The notes beneath the pieces were generated by a model. It was not told the origin of the DNA, ran no database searches, and worked only from the letters and a program-made list of their open reading frames with translations. The position numbers were made by a program, and so were the translations under genes. A DNA stretch of 12,710 nucleotides from JAGLHV01 sp023132075 [NCBI: bacterium] (GTDB lineage Bacteria; CBDUZB01; JAGLHV01): the NCBI GenBank assembly GCA_023132075.1, contig JAGLYT010000016.1:1-12710 (forward strand), in the 5' to 3' direction. Of this stretch, positions 2,597 to 12,071 are shown one piece after another (position 1 is the stretch's first letter; each line of letters starts with the position of its first letter).

Positions 2597-2661
2597 ATCA
2601 TTACCTCTCATTAAGGATTTTTAGTTTTACCTTTAAATTTTATCTAATTTACCCGGTACAC

Positions 2662-3327
2662 TCATTTTTTTAGTCCAAACATATATATCCAGTTATTATT
2701 AGTTTGATTCTGTTTGCTATCTTCCAGATAATTAATTATTAACTCCGTAACATCAGATTTAAAATAACTTAATAAACTCTCCGGTTTTGGAAGAATTTCT
2801 TTACCAACAAAATTGCTGTCTAACGGCGGGAAATTTTGCTGAATTAATAGATATCCATTTTTATCTATTAATTCTATAATGTTTTGGCAAACCCTATCAA
2901 TCTTAGAAAATACATACCAAAACAACCCTCTAACAATAACGAGATGATATTTTCTTCCTTTCCAATTTTGCGCATAAAGATCCCGGGTGATATCCATTAC
3001 TTCAAAGTCTGTATGAGAAAAAAGTTGTTTCGCTCTATTAACGGCCGTAGGAGAAAGATCAACACCCAAAACACTTCCATCTTTTTGACACAATTTGCCT
3101 GCTTCCTTTGTGAAATATCCCAATCCACACCCAACATCCAAAATACTTTTATAAGGAGCTCTTTTTTCTAATATATTTAGGGCAATCTTACAATCTAAAA
3201 GATAGGGGTCTTTATCCTGATGCCATGGAATTTCCTTCGATTTTTGATACATTTGCTCAAATTGCCCAATAAACTTTCCGTCCTTAAATACATAATCATG
3301 ATAATCATCAGAGTTAATGACAGACAT
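2662..3327 (-). CDS. Class I SAM-dependent methyltransferase
   Basis: A 221-residue soluble protein with the classical methyltransferase core. Motif I is SILDVGCGLGYFTKEAG (about residues 62-78), and the acidic SAM-ribose loop is LGVDLSPTAV about 20 residues later. FEVMDITRD follows as the next core strand, and YHLVIVRGLFWYVF is motif IV-like. A C-terminal strand NGYLLIQQNFPP completes the fold. The start is set at ATG 3327, which has AGGTGG 7-8 bases upstream. The in-frame GTG at 3339 falls inside that ribosome site and is less likely. The N-terminal segment, with YQKSKEIPWHQDKDPYLLD, resembles sugar-O-methyltransferases and 3-demethylubiquinone-type enzymes. The gene lies 38 bp after neuB and before the aminotransferase, so O- or N-methylation of the sugar acid or its side chain is a reasonable guess. 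The substrate is not known. Confidence 0.87.
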   Translation of the reverse strand: MSVINSDDYHDYVFKDGKFIGQFEQMYQKSKEIPWHQDKDPYLLDCKIALNILEKRAPYKSILDVGCGLGYFTKEAGKLCQKDGSVLGVDLSPTAVNRAKQLFSHTDFEVMDITRDLYAQNWKGRKYHLVIVRGLFWYVFSKIDRVCQNIIELIDKNGYLLIQQNFPPLDSNFVGKEILPKPESLLSYFKSDVTELIINYLEDSKQNQTNNNWIYMFGLKK

Positions 3328-3365
3328 ATCCGCACCCACCTATATGAAATATTTTACAGTTTCTA

Positions 3366-4220
3366 TTACAATTTTCTGGGATAAAGATAATCAAAATGTG
3401 GTTTTAATTTATCACGCACTACCTTTTCGTCCTTTGTAACTCTTTTTACCCCATCCCCCATTGCCTTTTCTATAATCCTAATATCTCTTACTAATTTTAT
3501 AACCCCCCCTGATTCTAAAGATGCTGCCTGATCAGAACCATACATAGTCCTATCCAGGGTTATGTGTCTCTCAATAGAAGTAACTCCCATAGCTACCGCT
3601 GCAAGCGAAATTTGTAAACCGATTTCATGCCCTGAATACCCTACCTTGCAATTATATCTTTTCCTGAGTGATTGAATAACCTGCAGATTTGCATCTCCAT
3701 CTTTCATGGGATAAGTACTATTGCAATGCATTAATTCAAAAGGACATTTTTTATTTTTGAAAATATCTACCGCTTTATCTATTTCCTCAAGGGAACTCAT
3801 CCCTGTTGAAATAAAAGTATATTTTTTTTCATCTGCTACTAAATTAAGTAATTCCCAATGGGTTAACATCGCTGAAGCAATTTTGTTATATTTCAAATTA
3901 TATTTTTCTAAGAACCGTTGACTATCTATATCCCAGGCTGAAGCAAACCATTCAACATTTTTTTCCTTACAATATCTGTTTATTTCATTATACTCCTCTT
4001 CCCCAAACTCAAGCCCTTCTTTTTGTTCCTTTTGAGTCGTACCCCATGGACTTTCCCGATGAGAATCAAGGTATTCTTTTGTATAAACCTTATCTATCGT
4101 TCTCTTTTGAAACTTAACCGCATCACAACCTGAAAATACAGCTAAGTCAATTAATTTCTTAGCTATTTGCAAGTCTCCGTTGTGATTAATCCCTATCTCC
4201 GAAATAATAAATACTGTCAT
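3366..4220 (-). CDS. neuB: N-acetylneuraminate synthase-like (NeuB) aldolase, short form without SAF domain
   Basis: This enzyme would condense phosphoenolpyruvate with a hexosamine to form a nonulosonic acid. The TIM-barrel signatures occur in order: SEIGINHNGD (7-16), VKFQKR (36-41), FASAWD (92-97), ISTGMSS (137-143), ELMHCNSTYP (162-171), GYSGHEIG (194-201) and ERHITLD (217-223). H198 and H219 are 21 residues apart, as are the two metal-ligand histidines (215 and 236) of the meningococcal enzyme. The protein stops at 284 residues, about 60 short of usual NeuB, so the C-terminal antifreeze-like SAF domain that helps bind the sugar is absent. GSDQAASLE replaces the common GPDHxxSLE. The ATG at 4220 has a strong GGAGG 6 bases upstream. 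The gene lies 54 bp after neuA. A short SAF-less branch of this family is likely, rather than recent truncation, because the C-terminus is tidy. The exact sugar is unknown. Confidence 0.86.
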   Translation of the reverse strand: MTVFIISEIGINHNGDLQIAKKLIDLAVFSGCDAVKFQKRTIDKVYTKEYLDSHRESPWGTTQKEQKEGLEFGEEEYNEINRYCKEKNVEWFASAWDIDSQRFLEKYNLKYNKIASAMLTHWELLNLVADEKKYTFISTGMSSLEEIDKAVDIFKNKKCPFELMHCNSTYPMKDGDANLQVIQSLRKRYNCKVGYSGHEIGLQISLAAVAMGVTSIERHITLDRTMYGSDQAASLESGGVIKLVRDIRIIEKAMGDGVKRVTKDEKVVRDKLKPHFDYLYPRKL

Positions 4221-4274: not shown

Positions 4275-4997
4275 TTATTTCTTCACTACTTTTTTCGTGC
4301 AAAATATTTTCTGCATAAAATACTCACATATATCTATATCCTCTACTGTATCTATTTCAAAAGATTTTCTATAATCCATTATGTACATTTCGATTTTTCC
4401 TCCGAAACGATTATTAAACTTTTCTAAAATCGCCGGTTTAAAAATATAAATAGAACCGTTTTCCAAATACAAAGGCTGTCTATTTTGTCTGTTGCCCCTA
4501 TTATTATAATTATAGTTTAAACTCATCAATTTCTTATCCTCTTTCTTCCATATACAAAAATCTTCCAGGGCTGCTGCCGAAAAAAGGGAATCTGCTTTTT
4601 TAGATATAAAAAGTCCTATTGCATTATCAATATCCTCGCTTGTTCTCACCGGAGAAGTAGCCTGAAGAAAAACTATTATGTCAATTGTTTTTTTATTAAA
4701 TTTTTTGATATAACTTATTGCATGTAATAAAGCTTGTTCTGATGAAGAAATATCCGTAGCCAGTTTCTTAGGACGCTTTATGATTTCTGCATCTGACTTT
4801 CCGGAAACCTTTAGAATCTTTTCATCATCAGACGACACATAAACTTTTCCTATATATTTACTTGCTTTTGCCTGTTCTATTGACCAGGCAATAAGTGGTT
4901 TTCCACAAAAACTCATAAGATTCTTTCCGGGAATTTCTTTCGAACCTCCCCGGGCAGGAATGATACATATAATATTTAACCCTTGTTTTTTTTTCAT
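4275..4997 (-). CDS. neuA: CMP-N-acylneuraminate cytidylyltransferase (NeuA-like)
   Basis: A 240-residue CMP-sugar synthetase that would use CTP to activate the acid made by NeuB. The nucleotide-binding motif IPARGGSKEIPGKN is at residues 13-26. VYVSSDDEKI (52-61), a RPxxLATD segment, FLQATSPVRTSEDID (110-124), LENGSIYIF (178-186) and FEIDTVEDI (213-221) follow in the family order. Length is normal for this family. The start chosen is ATG 4997, with AAGGAAG about 7 bases upstream. It lies one base after the TAG stop of the SpsF-like gene, so the two are probably translationally coupled. The in-frame ATG at 5024 overlaps that gene and has no spaced ribosome site. The preferred sugar acid (neuraminate, legionaminate, pseudaminate or a related acid) cannot be read from the sequence. 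Confidence 0.9.
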   Translation of the reverse strand: MKKKQGLNIICIIPARGGSKEIPGKNLMSFCGKPLIAWSIEQAKASKYIGKVYVSSDDEKILKVSGKSDAEIIKRPKKLATDISSSEQALLHAISYIKKFNKKTIDIIVFLQATSPVRTSEDIDNAIGLFISKKADSLFSAAALEDFCIWKKEDKKLMSLNYNYNNRGNRQNRQPLYLENGSIYIFKPAILEKFNNRFGGKIEMYIMDYRKSFEIDTVEDIDICEYFMQKIFCTKKVVKK

Positions 4998-4998
4998 A

Positions 4999-5847
4999 CT
5001 AACACTTCCTTTTATAACTGGCATCCCTTAAAGTACTAGATATTCTCTTACTTAAATGAGACTTAACAGTATTCATGGTTTCCTTTAAATGAGGATGACT
5101 ATCCACATAATAAATTGCTTCCCGGCAGCCAAACAAAGGATTATCAGGATAGAATGCATCAAAAACCGTTTTCAATACTCCCATATCTTCGGGATAGTCA
5201 GCAATAAAACGCAATTCAGGCCTCGTTATTTCTATTGGTGCTTTATATAAAGAAATTTTATACTTCTCTAAATGATTATGTACATAAGCAAGAGGGTTTT
5301 CTGCCTTTTTTAATGAATCATCCCTTTTTTCAAAACTGTCTATAAACAAATATCCTTTTGCAATTCGTACGTCTATCCCTAAAGGAAATGTTCTGGTTTG
5401 CCCCACACCATTTGTTGTATAATCCGCTCCTGTTTCCAAATGGAAGCGTATAATACTGTCAATTACTTCAGGATCATGCATAGGGGCATCCCCACAAAAC
5501 CGCAAATAATTGTCTGCAGAATATTTCTCCATTACATCATACATGCGTTTACAAACATCTACCTCATCTCCTCTTTCACAGACGACATTCTCCTGTTTAC
5601 AAAACTTCGAAATACAGTTATCCTGTTCTCTATTCGAAGTGGCAATAACGATGTTATCTACGAGGTGTGCCGCTCGAATTCTGTCAATAATATGACCTAA
5701 AATCGGGCGGTTACATAAGGGCATAAGAGCCTTGCCGGGTAATCGGGACGAACTCATACGCACCTGAACAAGAGCTATAACTCTGTGCATTTTTTTTTGC
5801 GTCAGAGTCTCAACTATAATCGGCAATTTAGCAATTCTTTTTCTCAT
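4999..5847 (-). CDS. spsF: SpsF-like cytidylyltransferase family protein
   Basis: A 282-residue nucleotidyltransferase of the SpsF/CMP-KDO synthetase-like group. ALVQVRMSSSRLPGKAL (25-41) is the hallmark nucleotide-binding loop. IVIATSNREQDN (66-77), YLRFCGDAPMHDPEVID (114-130), YTTNG and PLGIDVRI follow. In many relatives the fourth motif reads GDCPLIDP. The ATG at 5847 overlaps the preceding stop in an ATGA (5844-5847), so coupling is expected. The family usually begins at the equivalent of M20 (ATG 5790), but no ribosome site precedes that codon. The first 19 residues may therefore be an extension or the annotated start may be wrong. The gene sits directly before neuA, giving the operon two CTP-using enzymes. 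SpsF-type proteins often accompany NeuB/SpsE-type synthases, but their precise acceptor is poorly defined. Confidence 0.85.
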   Translation of the reverse strand: MRKRIAKLPIIVETLTQKKMHRVIALVQVRMSSSRLPGKALMPLCNRPILGHIIDRIRAAHLVDNIVIATSNREQDNCISKFCKQENVVCERGDEVDVCKRMYDVMEKYSADNYLRFCGDAPMHDPEVIDSIIRFHLETGADYTTNGVGQTRTFPLGIDVRIAKGYLFIDSFEKRDDSLKKAENPLAYVHNHLEKYKISLYKAPIEITRPELRFIADYPEDMGVLKTVFDAFYPDNPLFGCREAIYYVDSHPHLKETMNTVKSHLSKRISSTLRDASYKRKC

Positions 5848-6656
5848 TCAAGGTCATCCCACTGAAGAAGTTCTAAAGCTTTCAAATCACGAATAACTTT
5901 TTTACCCATGATTTTATGAAAATATTTTGGTTCCACTCCCCCGGCCGGACGCTTAATTTCCAGATATTCTTCTTTCAAAATATCTCCTTTTGAGATATCC
6001 CTGGCAAGATGTATGCTCCTATACATCTTCTTTCTTGCCTTTTCATCCGGTCTTCCTGAAACTTCAGTTAATCCCATTTCAATATCACGAATTCCTCTTA
6101 CCAAATCTTTCAAATCATCAGGTTCGAGAGAAAAAAAATGATCCGGCCCTTCCAGGTTTTTATCAATGGTTATATGTTTTTCGATAATCTTTGCTCCAAG
6201 AGCAATTGCTGCATAATCATCTGAGTCCCATCGATACGGTGTAACGACAAAATCAATATTATGTTTATCATAAAATTCAACATAATTTTTTATTAAAGAT
6301 AAAATTTCAGGACAAACGTTTTCAATAAAAAACCTTAATCTTGGTAACACAATATCAGACACGTCTATCCCACAATGTTTATTTATCCAACCTAAAATTT
6401 TTGTCTGGGTAAGAATCTTTTTCTCTATTTCCAACCAATTACCTTCACATTGAAACGGAGTTTTTAAAGAATCATCATTAATTATACCATATCTTTTTAC
6501 TCCAAATAAAGAACAATTTATAATTTGTTTCCCGTTTTTTATAAAAACCTTATGTCCCCGTTTAACAGCATCTTTAATTAACCGTTCAATGCCATATCCT
6601 TCTTTTAACAATAAAAATGTACATTTCTTTCCTTCTCTATCAACTTTTGGAAACAT
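5844..6656 (-). CDS. Chimeric frame: second part of an unknown glycan-biosynthesis protein fused to NeuB C-terminus (probable pseudogene part)
   Basis: A 270-codon frame with two unlike parts. Residues 1 to ~148 (CTFLLLKEGYGIERLIKDAV through VTPYRWDSDDYA) resemble the second half of a large surface-carbohydrate protein of a type I cannot name. They continue the frame of the gene at 7273-6695 if one base is added in an A7 run at 6706-6712. From ~149 the sequence is unmistakably NeuB/SpsE-like: AAIALGAKIIEKHITIDKN, EGPDHFFSLEPDDL, then a complete SAF domain (SIHLARDISKGDIL, KRPAGGVEPKYF, IMGKKVIRDLKALELL). Only the last third of the barrel is present. One metal histidine (H161) remains; the other and the PEP-binding part are gone, so it cannot be a working synthase alone. 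The ATG at 6656 has no ribosome site. The join is around 6195-6215. It may be a deletion fusion, or less likely a scaffold with a SAF domain. Confidence 0.7.
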   Translation of the reverse strand: MFPKVDREGKKCTFLLLKEGYGIERLIKDAVKRGHKVFIKNGKQIINCSLFGVKRYGIINDDSLKTPFQCEGNWLEIEKKILTQTKILGWINKHCGIDVSDIVLPRLRFFIENVCPEILSLIKNYVEFYDKHNIDFVVTPYRWDSDDYAAIALGAKIIEKHITIDKNLEGPDHFFSLEPDDLKDLVRGIRDIEMGLTEVSGRPDEKARKKMYRSIHLARDISKGDILKEEYLEIKRPAGGVEPKYFHKIMGKKVIRDLKALELLQWDDLE

Positions 6657-6694
6657 ATCTATTTTTTTATGTTTATAATTAAAATACAGTTTTT

Positions 6695-7273
6695 TTATAT
6701 ACTTATTTTTTTAAAATAATTCTTCAAACATTCAATGAATTTTCCTTTAAAACCATGGCTTTCTGTCCTTTTAATTTCGATTATAGAAAATGGTATAGAA
6801 TATTTTTTACAAACTATGGGAACAAGTCGGGGAAACAAACTGTAATTCTGCTTCCAGAACAACAAAGTAAAATCTACTTCCTCTTTCTTAAACTCTTTAC
6901 TCACATAAATTATCGCGGAAGGTTTAACCTGTTCTACCAGACCCGACAACATCTTGCTGCGGCCAATTACAGGATCTATCATGTTTTTCAAGAAAAGGTA
7001 ATATAGGGTTGCCAATTTTAATTTTATTTTTTTTGCCCAGGGAAAAAGTTCAAAGAGAAATTCATCAAACCGATTAAACCAATCAAGTTGTAAAGTAAAA
7101 TAATCACTCATTTCTTTTAACATTTTTACCGGAGAATAATAATCATTTAAAAAATAATATTTGATTCCTCTCTTGTCTAATTCATAACAAACTTTCGGAG
7201 TCAAAGCAATGATTTTACTGTTTTCTTCAAATTTCAAATCCTGGCTGTATGTTTCCAGCAAATAAGTTTTCAT
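6695..7273 (-). CDS. Unknown glycan-biosynthesis protein, N-terminal part (frameshifted)
   Basis: A 192-residue frame starting MKTYLLETYSQDLKFEENSK, with LTPKVCYELDKRGIKYYFLNDYY, then a helical stretch FDEFLFELFPWAKKIKLKL and IIYVSKEFKKEEVDF. I do not recognise the family. The layout (short strands alternating with helices, KPSAIIYVSKE) fits the N-terminal lobe of a GT-B-like glycosyl- or phospho-transferase, which is inference. AAGG lies 7 bases before ATG 7273, and the flippase stop is two bases upstream, so coupling is likely. The frame ends in TAA just after an A7 run (6706-6712). Adding one A there opens the frame through 6656 into the next ORF, giving a protein of about 476 residues. 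The two ORFs are therefore best read as one broken gene, or as one gene needing slippage on the A7 tract, or as a sequencing error. Confidence 0.72.
   Translation of the reverse strand: MKTYLLETYSQDLKFEENSKIIALTPKVCYELDKRGIKYYFLNDYYSPVKMLKEMSDYFTLQLDWFNRFDEFLFELFPWAKKIKLKLATLYYLFLKNMIDPVIGRSKMLSGLVEQVKPSAIIYVSKEFKKEEVDFTLLFWKQNYSLFPRLVPIVCKKYSIPFSIIEIKRTESHGFKGKFIECLKNYFKKISI
6706..6712 (-). other. A7 frameshift site joining two ORFs
   Basis: On the minus strand the end of the 7273-6695 frame reads TAT TTT AAA AAA ATA AGT ATA TAA. With eight A instead of seven, it reads TTT AAA AAA AAT AAG TAT ATA and stays open through two more A-rich stretches into the ATG at 6656 and beyond. No ribosome site precedes 6656. 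A7 is a classical slippery sequence, so low-level slippage could still give full-length product. Simple mutation or a homopolymer error is at least as likely. Confidence 0.65.
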
Positions 7274-7275
7274 AT

Positions 7276-8787
7276 TTATGCCTTTTTAAAATTTTTAATT
7301 TTCTCAGCTGTAAAACCAATAAATTCCCTGATAAAATTAATTATTTTTTCTTTAGAAAAATATTTTCTGTATCCTATTGAAATAACTATACTCCAGATAA
7401 TTACTTGCATTGATAAAGAAATAAGAGCAAAGAACCAGGGATTTAATACTGTCAAACCAAGTAAATTATGAAAAACAGTAAACATCATACTTATTAAAAA
7501 AGGAAACACAATCAAAGGTAAGAAAAAAACAAACTCCTTGCTCTGAACAAAAACATACTTTCGGATTAAGAAATAAGCGACAAAGGTAACTAAGCCTTGA
7601 CTGATTACAGTTACCCAGGCAATACCGTAAATACCATATCCTAAACGAATAACAAGCAAATCAAAAACCACATTTAAAACTAATCCAACAATATAAATAG
7701 TGGTAGAAATTGCTTGTTTATTAACAACTTTTGAAGAAAGAATGAGATTAGGAATAACTATAAGAGATGCCAAATAAAGATTGCATGATAATATATAAAA
7801 GAGAAACATACTTTCTTTATAGTTAATAGTAATCAAATTTACTAAAAAATAAAAACAGGTTTGAAAAAAAGGAATTGCTAAAGCAGTACAGACTGCTAAA
7901 TAAACGCTAATTCTTTTGGTATCACTAAATGCATCGATAATTTTTTTTTCTCTTCCGGATTTTTCCCATAATATCGGTTGAAGAACCCTTCCAAAATCAG
8001 CAAAAATATCCCCTCCAAATCTAACAAATCCTATTGCATAAACATAAAGACCTAAATCCCTTAATGTCAAAGATGCAGCAATAATAGTCCTATCTGCTAT
8101 TGCATATCCCCAGAAAACAAAAGATCCTATACTCAAAACAATTCCAACTTTAAATAGTCTCTTAATTTCCCCCCAATCAAATTGAAATTTATATCCAAGT
8201 GAACTTTTTTTAAAATAATAAAATCCTGTAACAATTGCTCCAATAATCGGAGCAATTAATATTGCATAAATTCTAAAATAGAATATTAAAGCAATTAAAG
8301 CTATAAAAATTGATACCGCATTAATTAAATTACCTTTAGCAACTAAAGTAAATTTTTGTTTGGAAAAATTTGTTTGCACACAATAATTAACTAAACGAGT
8401 CATAATAAAACTAATCGCTGTAATTATCAATCCAATCTTTATTACAGGATTATCGAAAAAAAATGAAGCACAAAAGACAACAAAAAAAGGAATAATAGAA
8501 TAAAGCAGACTTGCGGAAATAGATATATTTTGTATTCTTAGCATTTCCTTTTCATTGTTCTTCCCCAAAAAATAAGAAATTTCCCGTTGCCCGGCAGAAA
8601 AAATACCGGGATTTAAAAAATTTGCATAAGTCAACCACAAAGAAAGAAAACCAACTATTCCATATTCTTCCGGTAAAAGAAAAGCAGCTATGATTACATT
8701 TCTTGGTATATAAATAAAGCCGGTAATTATTTTTACAATATTAAATTTTGCTGATTGTTTAATAACATCAGTTATGTTAATCTGCAT
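7276..8787 (-). CDS. Polysaccharide flippase (Wzx/RfbX type, MOP superfamily)
   Basis: A 503-residue, very hydrophobic membrane protein with about 12-14 predicted transmembrane helices spread over its whole length. The start VIKQSAKFNIVKIITGFIYI, followed by AAFLLPEEYGIVGFLSLWL, is typical of oligosaccharide repeat-unit translocases. Later features are RTIIAASLTLRDLGLYVYAI and a central ADFGRVLQPILWE. The length is as expected for the family (about 420-510). It would flip undecaprenyl-linked repeat units or lipid-linked sugars from the inner to the outer leaflet. AAGGG lies 4 bases before ATG 8787. It stands 55 bp after the wrecked pseB, and the next gene begins 2 bp after its stop, so it is central in the operon. 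The substrate is expected to be a glycan carrying the acidic sugar made by the downstream genes, which is inference from context. Confidence 0.9.
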   Translation of the reverse strand: MQINITDVIKQSAKFNIVKIITGFIYIPRNVIIAAFLLPEEYGIVGFLSLWLTYANFLNPGIFSAGQREISYFLGKNNEKEMLRIQNISISASLLYSIIPFFVVFCASFFFDNPVIKIGLIITAISFIMTRLVNYCVQTNFSKQKFTLVAKGNLINAVSIFIALIALIFYFRIYAILIAPIIGAIVTGFYYFKKSSLGYKFQFDWGEIKRLFKVGIVLSIGSFVFWGYAIADRTIIAASLTLRDLGLYVYAIGFVRFGGDIFADFGRVLQPILWEKSGREKKIIDAFSDTKRISVYLAVCTALAIPFFQTCFYFLVNLITINYKESMFLFYILSCNLYLASLIVIPNLILSSKVVNKQAISTTIYIVGLVLNVVFDLLVIRLGYGIYGIAWVTVISQGLVTFVAYFLIRKYVFVQSKEFVFFLPLIVFPFLISMMFTVFHNLLGLTVLNPWFFALISLSMQVIIWSIVISIGYRKYFSKEKIINFIREFIGFTAEKIKNFKKA

Positions 8788-8842
8788 AATTCCCTTTTTT
8801 ATAAATATCCCTCATATATAAACAAATATCACCCATGAATTA

Positions 8843-8958
8843 TTAAATTTCAATAAACTCCATTTTTAATGGGGTTGCTTTGGAAATATTTTTCTTAATT
8901 TTTTTCCCAATACTAATCTCAAATATTTGGGTGGCAATCCGGCATCGGGTCTTATACC
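8843..8958 (-). pseudogene. C-terminal remnant of a PseI/NeuB-type synthase SAF domain
   Basis: After the pseB residues IMGIRP the frame does not go on with the family GEKLHE. It turns into DAGLPPKYLRLVLGKKLRK, which matches the SAF-domain tail of pseudaminate/neuraminate synthases (family form: RPGYGLPPKYLxxxLGKKxxxDI). With one A added to an A5 run near 8890-8894, the frame continues NISKATPLKMEFIEI and stops at TAA 8845-8843, which completes the usual GTPLKWELI-type end. Only about 35 residues of the synthase remain, so it has no activity. The join lies about 8944-8955. I read this as the scar of a deletion that removed the genes between pseB and pseI. Confidence 0.72.
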
Positions 8959-9480
8959 CATGATATTCATTTTGCATTTAGGCGCAATTAATTTAGCCAA
9001 ATCAACAATTTTCATACTCGGCATTTTAGGAATAAAAATTTCCCCTTTTTGCATCATTCCAATAGACTTAATAACAAATTCTACTCCTTGCTCAAGGGTC
9101 ATCCAAAATCGTGTTATTCTTTCATCCGTTATAGTAATAACACCCTTTAACTTCTGTTTTCTAAATAACGGCACCACACTACCTCTGCTACCTAAAACAT
9201 TACCATAACGAACACAACTCACCTGAGTTTTACAATTTACACTTACATAGGAGTTAGCAGCAATAAATATCTTCTCCATACACATTTTTGCCGCCCCATA
9301 TAAATTAATGGGATTCACTGCTTTATCCGTACTTAATGCTATTACTTTACTAACATTACAATCTATTGCAGCCTTTATAACATTTTGTGCACCAACAACA
9401 TTAGTCTGAACTGCTTCAAAAGGATTATACTCACAAACAGGAACCTGCTTTAACGCAGCCGTATGTACTACAACATCCAC
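8866..9480 (-). CDS. pseB: UDP-GlcNAc 4,6-dehydratase (PseB-like), central/C-terminal fragment
   Basis: This open frame of 204 codons carries most of the catalytic SDR domain of a UDP-N-acetylglucosamine 4,6-dehydratase (5-inverting type), which makes the first intermediate of pseudaminic acid. Recognisable segments are HTAALKQVP, YNPFEAVQTNVVGAQNVI, STDKAVNPINLYGAAK with K53, Y61 and K65, VRYGNVLGSRGSVVP, TDERITRFWMTLEQGVEFV and KMPSMKIVDLAKLIAP. The D-K to Y spacing of 8 residues matches the D132/K133...Y141 set of H. pylori FlaA1. The GTG at 9480 is not a real start: the N-terminus lies in the overlapping frame at 9704-9468, and the family's linking residues (usually AFEG or similar) are missing. 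The last ~30 residues come from a PseI-type protein. It is best called a pseudogene fragment. The N-terminal nucleotide-binding loop is in the other frame. Confidence 0.78.
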   Translation of the reverse strand: MDVVVHTAALKQVPVCEYNPFEAVQTNVVGAQNVIKAAIDCNVSKVIALSTDKAVNPINLYGAAKMCMEKIFIAANSYVSVNCKTQVSCVRYGNVLGSRGSVVPLFRKQKLKGVITITDERITRFWMTLEQGVEFVIKSIGMMQKGEIFIPKMPSMKIVDLAKLIAPKCKMNIMGIRPDAGLPPKYLRLVLGKKLRKIFPKQPH

Positions 9481-9704
9481 ACTCTGGACAACCTATCTTT
9501 ATCCCTCATATTACCAATTAAAAACCTCAAACGTTTATCAAATTTAAATTTATGTTCCATTTCATACTGTTTAAGTTCGTCACGGCTAAAAATTCTTATA
9601 AGCTTTGGATTGTATTTTTTGAGCATTATCTCGGTAAATTTCTGACCAAAAGAACCCGTTCCCCCGGTAAGCAAAATAATCTTATCTTTCCAATTAATTC
9701 CAAT
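9468..9704 (-). pseudogene. pseB: PseB-like dehydratase, N-terminal fragment (frameshifted, no ATG)
   Basis: The frame reads GINWKDKIILLTGGTGSFGQ, then KFTEIMLKKYNPK, FSRDELKQYEMEHKF and RLRFLIGNMRDKDRLSR, which is the N-terminal NAD-binding half of PseB with its TGGTGSFG loop. It stops at 9470-9468 after SRVWML. Normal PseB goes on with about four more residues and then VDVVIHAAALKQ, which is found here one frame away (from 9480). The DNA fits loss of 10 bases near 9480. AAGGAG is followed after AATT by ATT at 9704-9702 where the family's Met is expected, in the same spacing as the flippase's AAGGG-AATT-ATG. The start codon thus seems to have become ATT, or a rare ATT/TTG start is used. This marks decay. 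Confidence 0.72.
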
Positions 9705-9737
9705 AATTCTCCTTCCTTCTATTGATAATTTATGCTT

Positions 9738-10238
9738 TTATTCTACCAACCCTGATAAAACTTTTACTAAATTTTCTGTTTTTTCCGATATTTTTTTTAT
9801 CCTTTTTAATCTATCCTGATATACTTCCGCAATATTTTTTTCCTCCTTATTTGTAAAAAGACTTGAAGATTTATTGAGCATTCCTTGCGTTTTCACAATT
9901 TTCTCTGTGGTTTTTTGCATCCGTTGAAGTAAGCCATTTTTTAAACAATTAATAACAATTTTTAAAACATCCAGATTTGCCTGATAAAAATTTTTTCTTT
10001 CTCCTTTAATCCATACCTTTCTTACCGCATTCCATCTCTCCAATTCCCGAATATTTACACTGGCATTACCCTTGCTAACCTTCAACTTATCAACCATATC
10101 ATCTAAAGACAACGGCCCGGGGCTTAAAAATAACAAGGCATATAGCTGGCCAACTATGCGATTTATACTCAAACTCTCGCTTAATTGTCCAATTGTAGCA
10201 ATAAATTCTTCTTCAACTACCTTAAGTTTCGAATCCAT
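9738..10238 (-). CDS. GbsR/MarR-family transcriptional regulator
   Basis: A 166-residue DNA-binding protein. Residues ~27-87 form a winged helix-turn-helix: RIVGQLYALLFLSPGPLSLDDMVDKL (helix and turn), VSKGNASVNIRELERWNAV (recognition helix) and a wing at VWIKGERKNFYQA. This pattern, with GPLSLDDMVDKLKVSKGNAS, is that of the GbsR subgroup. The last ~75 residues are helical and charged and probably form a dimerisation coiled coil. AAAGG sits 8 bases before ATG 10238. It heads the operon: a strong promoter with a perfect palindrome lies about 600 bp upstream, and the pseB wreck starts 34 bp after it. Regulators of this group are known from glycine-betaine control. Control of the sugar operon, perhaps with self-regulation through the palindrome, is inferred from position. 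Ligand unknown. Confidence 0.85.
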   Translation of the reverse strand: MDSKLKVVEEEFIATIGQLSESLSINRIVGQLYALLFLSPGPLSLDDMVDKLKVSKGNASVNIRELERWNAVRKVWIKGERKNFYQANLDVLKIVINCLKNGLLQRMQKTTEKIVKTQGMLNKSSSLFTNKEEKNIAEVYQDRLKRIKKISEKTENLVKVLSGLVE

Positions 10239-10288
10239 AAATAAAGCCTTTCTTTTAATTTAGCAACATCAAAAATGTTTTATTTTTT

Positions 10289-10331
10289 GGTAACCGCAGG
10301 CTTTCTTGTCCGTCTCTGGAGGAAACCTGCG
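10289..10331. repeat. 43-bp hairpin-forming repeat, copy 1
   Basis: Begins GGTAACCGCAGG and ends AAACCTGCG. It is 40/43 identical to the copy at 10443-10485. The ends pair imperfectly (CGCAGG with CCTGCG) with an inner CTCTGGAG-type hairpin. All three differences are transitions toward A/T in this copy, and they weaken the stem. Confidence 0.85.
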
Positions 10332-10416
10332 TTTTTATGTAATAATTTCTTTTAAATCAAAATCCAACGAATCTTTAAACTCATACTCTTCCCAATGAGC
10401 AATTAAAACTTTTCTT

Positions 10417-10437
10417 ACAGACCGTGTCATAACCCTG
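10417..10437. repeat. 21-bp repeat, inverted copy of 10616-10636
   Basis: ACAGACCGTGTCATAACCCTG here matches the reverse complement of 10616-10636 at 18 of 21 bases (AGAGACTGTGTCACAACCCTG). It lies just before the second 43-bp repeat, so the repeat family extends beyond the main inverted element. Confidence 0.7.
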
Positions 10438-10442
10438 CTTTA

Positions 10443-10485
10443 GGTAGCCGCAGGCTTTCTTGTCCGCCTCTGGAGGAAGCCTGCG
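10443..10485. repeat. 43-bp hairpin-forming repeat, copy 2
   Basis: Begins GGTAGCCGCAGGCTT and ends GAAGCCTGCG, so the nine terminal bases CGCAGGCTT / AAGCCTGCG pair perfectly, with CCTC/GAGG as an inner stem. It looks like the less decayed copy of a REP- or MITE-like dispersed palindrome. Its first ten bases also recur inverted at 10643-10652. Confidence 0.85.
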
Positions 10486-10503
10486 TAATTTCTCCGTCAA
10501 AAA

Positions 10504-10646
10504 CGCAACCTGAACAAACTGTGTCACAATCAATGTAGTTGCCCAATTTATTGGGCTAATGAATATCTTTTCTGACGGGCGTCATAAATGCCGCCACTAC
10601 AATTGTTTCAAAAATCAGGGTTGTGACACAGTCTCTGAAGGTTGCG
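10504..10646. repeat. Nested inverted-repeat element
   Basis: The 26-bp ends 10504-10529 (CGCAACCT...ACTGTGTCACAA) and 10621-10646 pair in 20 positions. Inside are a perfect GCCCAAT/ATTGGGC hairpin at 10541-10556 and near-complementary stretches CAATGTAGTTG (10531-10541) and CACTACAATTG. The outer pair GGTAGCCGCA (10443-10452) and TGCGGCTACC (10643-10652) encloses both this element and 43-bp repeat copy 2 in a 210-bp unit. There is no transposase gene, so it is a non-coding mobile or palindromic element, if mobile at all. Confidence 0.75.
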
Positions 10647-10825
10647 GCTACCAAATTCTCATTATTACCATTATTTTCCCCACATAATGAAAAAATTCTT
10701 TTTTATTTATAACACTTTTTTGAGTCTTTATTATTTTATTTTTGACATTACCTTTAATTTTGTACATCTGTCGCTTTGAAAAATTAAAAAATAGACAATT
10801 TCTGACAATATCTTTCATTTGTATC

Positions 10826-10904: not shown

Positions 10905-12071
10905 TTATTTTTTCTTTTTTAAAATCATTAATTTATTCTTAATCTTTTCGGTAACGGTCTTTATCTGCTGTTTTTTTAGTTCCGGACACATGGGAAGTGA
11001 CAGTACTTCTTTTGTTGCTTGTTCGCTTTGCGGGAAATCACCTTTTTTATAACCTAAAAATTTAAATGCTTTTTGCAAATGTAAAGGCAAAGGATAATGT
11101 ATTGCGGTAGCAATTCCTTCTTCTGCTAATAATTGTTTAATCTTATCCCTGTTTTTTAAACGAATCGTATATTGATTGAAAACATGTTTCATCTCTTTGT
11201 TTGCCTCAGGTAAAATAACACCTGTTTCTTTCAATAAATCATTATACATTTTTGCTATTTCAATCCGTTTATCAAGCCATTTATCTAAATATTTTAATTT
11301 AACCCTTAAAACAGCTGCCTGTAACGCATGCAGCCGGCTATTACTACCAATGATAGAATGACTATATTTTTTTTCTGAACCATGTTGACGCAACATCTTA
11401 ATTTTAACAGCAGTTTTTTTGTCATCGGTAAGAATCATTCCCCCATCACCATATCCTCCCAAATTTTTTGAAGGGAAAAAACTTAAACAACCGATATCCC
11501 CTATTGCCCCGGCTTTCTTTCTTTTTATACTCTGAGCCTTTATCGCATATATTCCACCTGTCGCATATTGGGCACCGATTGCCTGAGCAGCATCTTCGAT
11601 TATTTTTAGTTTATATTTTTTGGCTATTTTAAGGATTGAGTTCATTTCGGCAGGTTGGCCGTAAAGATGTACAGGAATTATAGCTTTTGTCCTTGCAGTT
11701 ATTTTTTCTTCTATTTTCTTTACATCGATATTATAAGTTTTTAAATCTATATCCACAAAAACAGGTTTTGCCCCTCGCAAAATTATTGACTCTACAGTAG
11801 CCGCAAAAGTAAACGGCACGGTTATTACTTCATCTCCGGGACCAATATCATACGCCATCAAAGAAAGAATCAAAGCATCTGTACCGGACGCTACCCCAAC
11901 AGCAAATTTAACACCACAATACCGGGCAATTTCTTTTTCCAATGATTCCACTTCAGGACCAAGAATAAAACAAGTACTATCCAAAACCCTTTTAATAGCA
12001 ATGTCCACTTCTTTTTTAATCGATTTATATTGAGCCTTTAAATCTATCAACGGAATTTTTGTTTTAATCAT
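10905..12071 (-). CDS. DegT/DnrJ/EryC1/StrS-family sugar aminotransferase
   Basis: A 388-residue PLP enzyme that would transfer an amino group, usually from glutamate, to a keto-nucleotide sugar. The N-terminal IPLIDLKAQYKSIKKEV, the substrate loop FILGPEVESLE and the cofactor loop ASGTDALILSL are typical. VPFTFAATVE, IPVHLYGQP, EDAAQAIGA (D160 to the pyridine nitrogen), SFFPSKNLGGYGDGG (K202 the PLP lysine) and RQHGSEKKYSHSIIGSNSRLHALQAAVL follow. It is longest in one place: between GAQY and KKAGAIGD about 15 extra residues (ATGGIYAIKAQSIKR) interrupt a segment that is usually only 2-4 residues. GAGG lies 6 bases before ATG 12071. It looks like WbpE/QdtB-type enzymes; whether it is PseC-like or acts on another sugar cannot be said. 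It lies before the promoter of the sugar operon and may be transcribed with YfhO. Confidence 0.92.
   Translation of the reverse strand: MIKTKIPLIDLKAQYKSIKKEVDIAIKRVLDSTCFILGPEVESLEKEIARYCGVKFAVGVASGTDALILSLMAYDIGPGDEVITVPFTFAATVESIILRGAKPVFVDIDLKTYNIDVKKIEEKITARTKAIIPVHLYGQPAEMNSILKIAKKYKLKIIEDAAQAIGAQYATGGIYAIKAQSIKRKKAGAIGDIGCLSFFPSKNLGGYGDGGMILTDDKKTAVKIKMLRQHGSEKKYSHSIIGSNSRLHALQAAVLRVKLKYLDKWLDKRIEIAKMYNDLLKETGVILPEANKEMKHVFNQYTIRLKNRDKIKQLLAEEGIATAIHYPLPLHLQKAFKFLGYKKGDFPQSEQATKEVLSLPMCPELKKQQIKTVTEKIKNKLMILKKKK

Follow-up and report, generated by a model that had tools for sequence, protein, structure and literature searches.

The DNA analyzed here, a contig of 12,710 nucleotides (the window; contig C68 of draft genome G000, which comprises 1,874,619 bases in 389 contigs and is 86.71% complete), carries two joined genes on its minus strand, one on either side of an open gene for a Wzx-type flippase. 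In fusion 1 the dehydratase gene pseB runs into the end of the synthase gene pseI, and in fusion 2 pieces of a glycosyltransferase-like gene run into the end of another NeuB-family synthase gene. Both are very probably dead remnants left by deletions in a variable surface-sugar cassette, that is, ordinary genomic scars. The original prediction had described two fusions, each ending in a NeuB-type SAF tail; the joins of PseB to PseI and of an unrelated stretch to NeuB were upheld, but the frame of fusion 1 is interrupted, and no SAF domain is detectable in it. The open reading frames (ORFs) of the window were listed, the sequence from 5780 to 10300 was inspected, and the proteins were scanned against Pfam and NCBIfam. 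Comparison within the phylum was made with two further genomes, G001 (94% complete) and G002 (97% complete), which belong to the genus of G000. Whole-window DNA comparison within the genus was based on the best 40 first-look candidates per genome.

Fusion 1 as a whole occupies 8843-9698. Over 8866-9698 on the minus strand, a UDP-GlcNAc 4,6-dehydratase (PseB) continues into the 3' end of a PseI gene, and the following parts were distinguished:

8946-9698, minus strand: pseB remnant, the first ~250 codons with the C-terminus missing (alignment to intact G002 pseB).
8843-8957, minus strand: pseI 3' remnant, covering the latter portion of the SAF region (84% identity to the final ~115 bases of G002 pseI).
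8946-8957, minus strand: junction 1, a 12-base stretch with Ile-Arg-Pro codons that is common to pseB and pseI (alignment to both G002 genes).

As far as the motif at 8957-8946 the window matches G002 pseB, and beyond it G002 pseI. Between the two G002 genes, 10 of the 12 bases in this stretch are equal, G002 being a relative that stands in for the parent, so that the exact homology in the true ancestor may differ. Only 0.095% of all G002 pseB x pseI breakpoint pairs fall in a 12-base stretch at least as similar, which agrees with the earlier claim that the joins are not random, although the figure applies to junction 1 alone. As the motif is read in the same frame by pseB and pseI, the join by itself would preserve the frame. 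The joined pseB-pseI frame nonetheless reads as dead, owing to its start position, which is ATT in the window and ATG in G002, and to two frame changes: pseB is 10 nucleotides shorter than in G002 near 9480-9485, and the pseI tail is 1 nucleotide shorter near 8899-8905, ~18 codons past its start. The ORF call from a GTG at 9480 is a mechanical one. This ORF (8866-9480) scored 285.8 bits against TIGR03589, under the cut-off of 407.75, compared with 482.6 for G002 pseB. Given the ATT, the frame change, and the absent C-terminus, the window has no full-length open frame over that cut-off, as would be expected of a functional PseB. The tail begins ~67 bases into the 174-base SAF match of G002 pseI, and a Pfam scan of the ORF at E<=1 gave no SAF and no NeuB match.

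The place of fusion 1 is occupied by intact pseB and pseI in G002, as was found by the comparison of syntenic loci that the original prediction had proposed. After the same left flank, G002:C90 carries a pseudaminic-acid operon with all four of pseB (L015:3276-4253; TIGR03589), pseC (TIGR03588), pseG (TIGR03590), and pseI (L015:14620-15669; TIGR03586), each over its NCBIfam cut-off, in the order pseB, pseC, other sugar genes, pseG, a PseH-like acetyltransferase (below its cut-off), pseI, and flippase. All that the window has of such an operon is the greater part of a broken pseB plus ~115 bases from the 3' end of pseI. The G002 pseB and pseI genes are whole, separate, and in the same order as in the window, with their motifs 11,527 bases apart on the same strand. 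In both relatives pseB extends beyond the join site, being whole in G002 and cut by a contig end ~45 codons later in G001. Using the 11.4-kb G002 operon as a DNA query against G000, only the pseI tail and a DegT cross-match were found among the best 40 of 178 candidates, which were the ones scored, and a diverged copy would escape this search. The same G002 locus includes a 686-amino-acid frame (L015:7392-9452) with an SpsF-like cytidylyltransferase N-terminus, read from the sequence, and a glutamate-1-semialdehyde-aminotransferase-like domain (residues 260-685).

Fusion 2 (5844-7273) contains the minus-strand ORF 5844-6656, which consists of an unrelated stretch of 147 amino acids followed by the C-terminal part of another NeuB-family synthase. 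Its parts are as follows:

5844-6212, minus strand: NeuB-family 3' remnant with a complete SAF domain (TIGR03569 positions 211-325 of 329; PF08666, 36.5 bits).
6201-6215, minus strand: junction 2 (approximate), between the glycosyltransferase-like gene and the last barrel helix of NeuB (NeuB match from residue 148-149 of ORF 5844-6656).
6216-6710, minus strand: probable second piece of the glycosyltransferase-like gene, in another frame and stopping before the C-terminal domain (family residues 300-343 by profile comparison).
6695-7273, minus strand: first piece (192 amino acids) of the broken glycan-biosynthesis or glycosyltransferase-like gene (aligns to residues ~19-170 of L014 and L032).

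In Pfam the tail matches NeuB profile positions 188-237 of 241 plus the whole SAF domain, and it aligns to the last barrel helix and SAF domain of the solved NeuB-family synthases with an SAF (antifreeze-like) domain, 8h2c, 1vli, and 1xuu. Unlike these, it lacks the first ~210 residues, which make up most of the catalytic barrel. The TIM barrel required of a PseI/NeuB synthase is absent from both tails, the TIGR03569 match in fusion 2 being confined to the span listed above. The tails are from two different synthases, as originally proposed: PseI in fusion 1 and another NeuB-family member in fusion 2. Against the solved PseI 8h2c the alignment extends weakly back to residue 122, which leaves the boundary of the NeuB part blurred.

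ORF 6695-7273 and the frame at 6710-6216 align in order with approximately the first 55% of a ~620-amino-acid glycan-locus protein, represented by glycosyltransferase-like sequences of 546 to 629 amino acids: L014 (from G000 itself, truncated where contig C143 ends), L033 (G001, 619 amino acids), and L032 (G358, 629 amino acids). In profile comparisons, for which E-values are pairwise and without a shuffled control, the first piece by itself gave an E-value of 1.1e-05 (or 4.7e-05 against a broader family) and the second by itself 0.007 (or 0.003), at probabilities of only 5% and 9%. The two combined reached 2.6e-07 (or 3.3e-06) over 306 columns. The two ORFs were thus probably one former gene, altered in frame and cut before its C-terminal domain. 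What had been called an unknown glycan protein in fusion 2 would then be the second piece of a larger gene, with ORF 6695-7273 as its first piece.

Of the 386 genomes searched, only its own contained the 147-amino-acid first half of fusion 2. The fused architecture was found in no other genome searched, and none of the tail matches, present in 12 of 40 others, started before residue 147. A contig scan with the fused ORF gave 68 pattern matches and no relative, the scan reaching close relatives only and having also missed NeuB tails. Searches of 386 genomes with the glycosyltransferase-like pieces and of 372 with the paralogue L014, together with the tail search, identified no close relative of either parent gene of junction 2; as the glycosyltransferase-like relatives are only distant (L014; L032, L034, and L035 in G358; and L033), junction 2 is not placed to the base. 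DNA alignment of the fusion 2 tail with the G001 region upstream of spsF gave no clear relatedness. A glycosyltransferase-like match in G002:C136 (E-value, 9.6e-4) was dropped as chance, being an 80-amino-acid frame with four stops. A Dimer_Tnp_hAT Pfam match on ORF 6695-7273 (E-value, 0.00095; 19.4 bits, below the cut-off of 21.4) was likewise rejected as chance in view of the alignment of this ORF to glycan-locus proteins.

The small lesions, three in fusion 1 and one probable frame change in fusion 2, all lie within 2260 bases of scarred genes. No lesion was seen in 9231 bases of other ORFs, mostly judged by their open frames, with six compared codon by codon to relatives. Under uniform placement the chance of such clustering is ~0.0015 for four lesions and 0.0076 for three, which is a rough guide. 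Relative to its intact counterpart, fusion 1 shows the disabling lesions of a pseudogene (ATT for ATG and the 10- and 1-nucleotide differences).

Several points weigh against two dead deletion leftovers. The pseB fragment, with 96% amino acid identity to G002 pseB in its 5' part and 92% in its 3' part, shows no relaxed selection: the ratio of nonsynonymous to synonymous substitution rates (dN/dS) relative to G002 is 0.05 and 0.16, respectively, compared with 0.20 for DegT, 0.18 for CudC, and 0.42 for the short YfhO tail in the flank. Six amino acid changes in pseB are specific to the window and four to G002, with seven assignable to neither, so there is no clear excess; neither a raised dN/dS nor lineage-specific acceleration, as in a pseudogene, was found in this fragment. 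Junction 2 has no close parent, and a deletion there is therefore one that we infer. The case for one glycosyltransferase-like gene in two pieces depends on the weak second piece. Finally, the joins are known from the assembled contig, and an assembly error at either is improbable but conceivable. As pseB has no sign of long drift, its inactivation would be recent, and the gene loss was probably recent as well; dN/dS at pseB cannot separate drift from selection. Synonymous divergence is 0.30 to 0.41 in pseB and 0.17 in DegT and CudC, and the higher value could mean allele exchange near the edge of the cassette.

Both scars lie between ends that are conserved in relatives. In the whole-window DNA comparison, homology on the left reaches into pseB, to 8946 in G002 and to 9163 in G001, and homology on the right to G001 runs from 5795 downward through spsF, neuA, a neuB lacking SAF, and an aminotransferase gene. 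Between these ends only the pseI tail matches G002, apart from which a short 77% match at 6649-6722 to contig C53 of the same genome was found (E-value, 4.8e-4). The locus is therefore a mosaic, with a left flank like those of G002 and G001, a right flank like that of G001, and a mostly unique middle. Judged from its sequence, the region is the variable cassette of an island of surface-glycan genes, bounded by conserved DegT-CudC-pseB on the left and by conserved spsF-neuA-SAF-less neuB on the right. The remaining genes of this layout are as follows:

10905-12071, minus strand: DegT-type aminotransferase, left conserved flank (Pfam PF01041; 92% DNA identity to G002:C90, 80% to G001:C312).
9738-10238, minus strand: CudC/MarR-like regulator, left conserved flank (adjoins pseB in all three genomes).
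7276-8787, minus strand: Wzx-type flippase, an open frame of 503 amino acids (PF13440; E-value, 8.6e-16), the only whole gene between the scars.
4999-5847, minus strand: SpsF/CMP-transferase-like gene, edge of the right conserved flank (G001 homology up to 5795; dN/dS of 0.23 relative to G001).
4275-5024, minus strand: NeuA/PseF-like cytidylyltransferase, right conserved flank (Pfam and NCBIfam scans, G001 comparison).
3366-4220, minus strand: SAF-less NeuB-family synthase of 284 amino acids, right conserved flank (PF03102 positions 1-241 of 241).

The left flank (YfhO tail, DegT, and CudC-like regulator) shares 92 to 94% DNA identity with G002:C90, and DegT shares 93.8% amino acid identity with its G002 counterpart. 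A scan of genome contigs for relatives of the flippase (44 pattern matches) found none, so that its intactness is judged without comparison. In G001 a radical SAM protein gene lies upstream of spsF, in place of the arrangement in the window.

Other differences were noted along the flanks. Approximately 490 bases at 10262-10753, in the gap between DegT and CudC, are missing from the same place in G002 and G001. They are built of short repeat modules that include inverted repeats. G002 has similar sequence at dozens of other places, and G000 and G001 at several, and the segment looks like an inserted cluster of small dispersed repeats. A methyltransferase gene at 2662-3339 (within 2613-3371) separates the aminotransferase gene from the SAF-less neuB. 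In G001:C10 these two genes directly adjoin, without a methyltransferase gene, which was thus either gained in the window lineage or lost in G001. The radical SAM gene at 729-1529 has a second, partial match (73% identical) at the end of G000 contig C143, where a methyltransferase-like ORF and the glycosyltransferase-like protein L014 are also encoded; G001:C387 has a match to this gene together with a member of the L014-type family.

The ancestral locus would have contained a pseudaminic-acid operon like that still present in G002 (pseB ... pseI, flippase). One deletion, of ~11.5 kb assuming an ancestral operon of G002 length, would have joined pseB to the end of pseI at the short shared coding motif. 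In another, the middle of the glycosyltransferase-like gene would have become attached to the 3' end of a different NeuB synthase gene. Small lesions would then have broken the reading frames, with two dead remnants around one open flippase gene as the outcome. Of the repeated short-homology deletion originally suggested, the event at fusion 1 is supported by the G002 comparison, and for fusion 2 we infer an origin by deletion like that of fusion 1.

Whether the loss of the pseudaminic-acid genes was also favored, e.g., as a surface-sugar change under phage or predator pressure, is a tentative addition to this account and on balance doubtful. The mosaic locus with its mostly unique middle and a dN/dS not yet relaxed, which fits a recent loss, are in keeping with it, but the scars are present in one genome, the searches turned up no other genome of the species, and the same observations are explained by deletion through drift. 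A switch from one surface sugar to another would fit the mosaic layout and is plausible.

It is improbable that contigs of different strains were joined at short shared motifs during assembly, in which case the fusions would exist in no cell. The fragmented draft (389 contigs, 86.7% complete) and the position of junction 1 inside a short conserved coding motif would allow this. However, the genes concerned carry independent small lesions, and the missing halves are absent from other contigs by the NeuB-family search and among the best 40 of 178 DNA candidates, an absence that is not firm at this completeness. Overlaps used by assemblers are normally longer than the 12-base shared stretch. The only other NeuB-family matches in G000 (three matches in all) were the SAF-less synthase and a DAHP-synthase-like frame. 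The latter, on contig C135, was set aside as a DAHP synthase and not a sialic-acid synthase on the basis of its sequence and neighbours.

The third, short synthase is intact, as first described: the NeuB at 3366-4220 is full-length, with no SAF domain in the Pfam scan. It shares 93% amino acid identity with its G001 counterpart (dN/dS of 0.11), and its best solved relative is 6ncs, a NeuB-type protein of 290 amino acids. A second SAF match in the same genome (G000:C179:8777-8911, L059; E-value, 5.0e-4) lies in a 293-amino-acid frame that is not a NeuB match. In sialic-acid synthase, according to PMC7591256, the antifreeze-like domain of one subunit provides residues for substrate binding in its partner, which makes it conceivable in principle that a free SAF domain serves the downstream SAF-less NeuB. 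That the remnants are expressed and selected, with the fusion 2 SAF domain (5844-6656), complete, in an open frame, and upstream of the SAF-less synthase, acting in trans as the domain that this synthase lacks, is nevertheless very hard to credit, as G001 keeps the SAF-less synthase without any SAF match at E<=0.001 in its assembly (94% complete), the NeuB-type 6ncs, at 290 amino acids, has a solved structure, the fused architecture and its first half were found in no other genome searched, and fusion 1, without start, frame, or detectable SAF domain, is incapable of such a role. If it were true, a deletion scar would have come to regulate a sugar synthase or to complete it as a subunit; the selected role once suggested for SAF fragments is unsupported.

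As deletion leftovers, the two remnants illustrate gene loss from a surface-sugar cassette in an uncultured bacterium: members of one genus retain the same ends and vary in the middle, where remnants show the former content. Gene callers will report "fusion proteins" here, for which neither a dehydratase nor a sialic-acid synthase label is warranted. A literature search found no report of pseB-pseI fusions, which is no proof of absence, and a search for sialic acid synthase with "SAF domain" gave no paper; one on the decay of pseudaminic-acid genes led to a paper on flagella, and the passages of PMC3688519 consulted contain nothing on such deletion scars.

The scars do not represent a new fused-protein system, and a close precedent for them is available. 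For Haloquadratum walsbyi, PMC3119063 describes repeat-mediated deletions, at short direct repeats, and deletion-coupled insertions, surface-glycan regions included, and the exchange of unrelated sequence at one place, including the presence or absence of sialic-acid genes. The case described here differs from what is reported there in that the scars are in one genome, the comparison is between species of one genus and not between strains, and what was lost is a pseudaminic-acid operon. The window is a new instance, in another, bacterial lineage, of the kind of event described for H. walsbyi.

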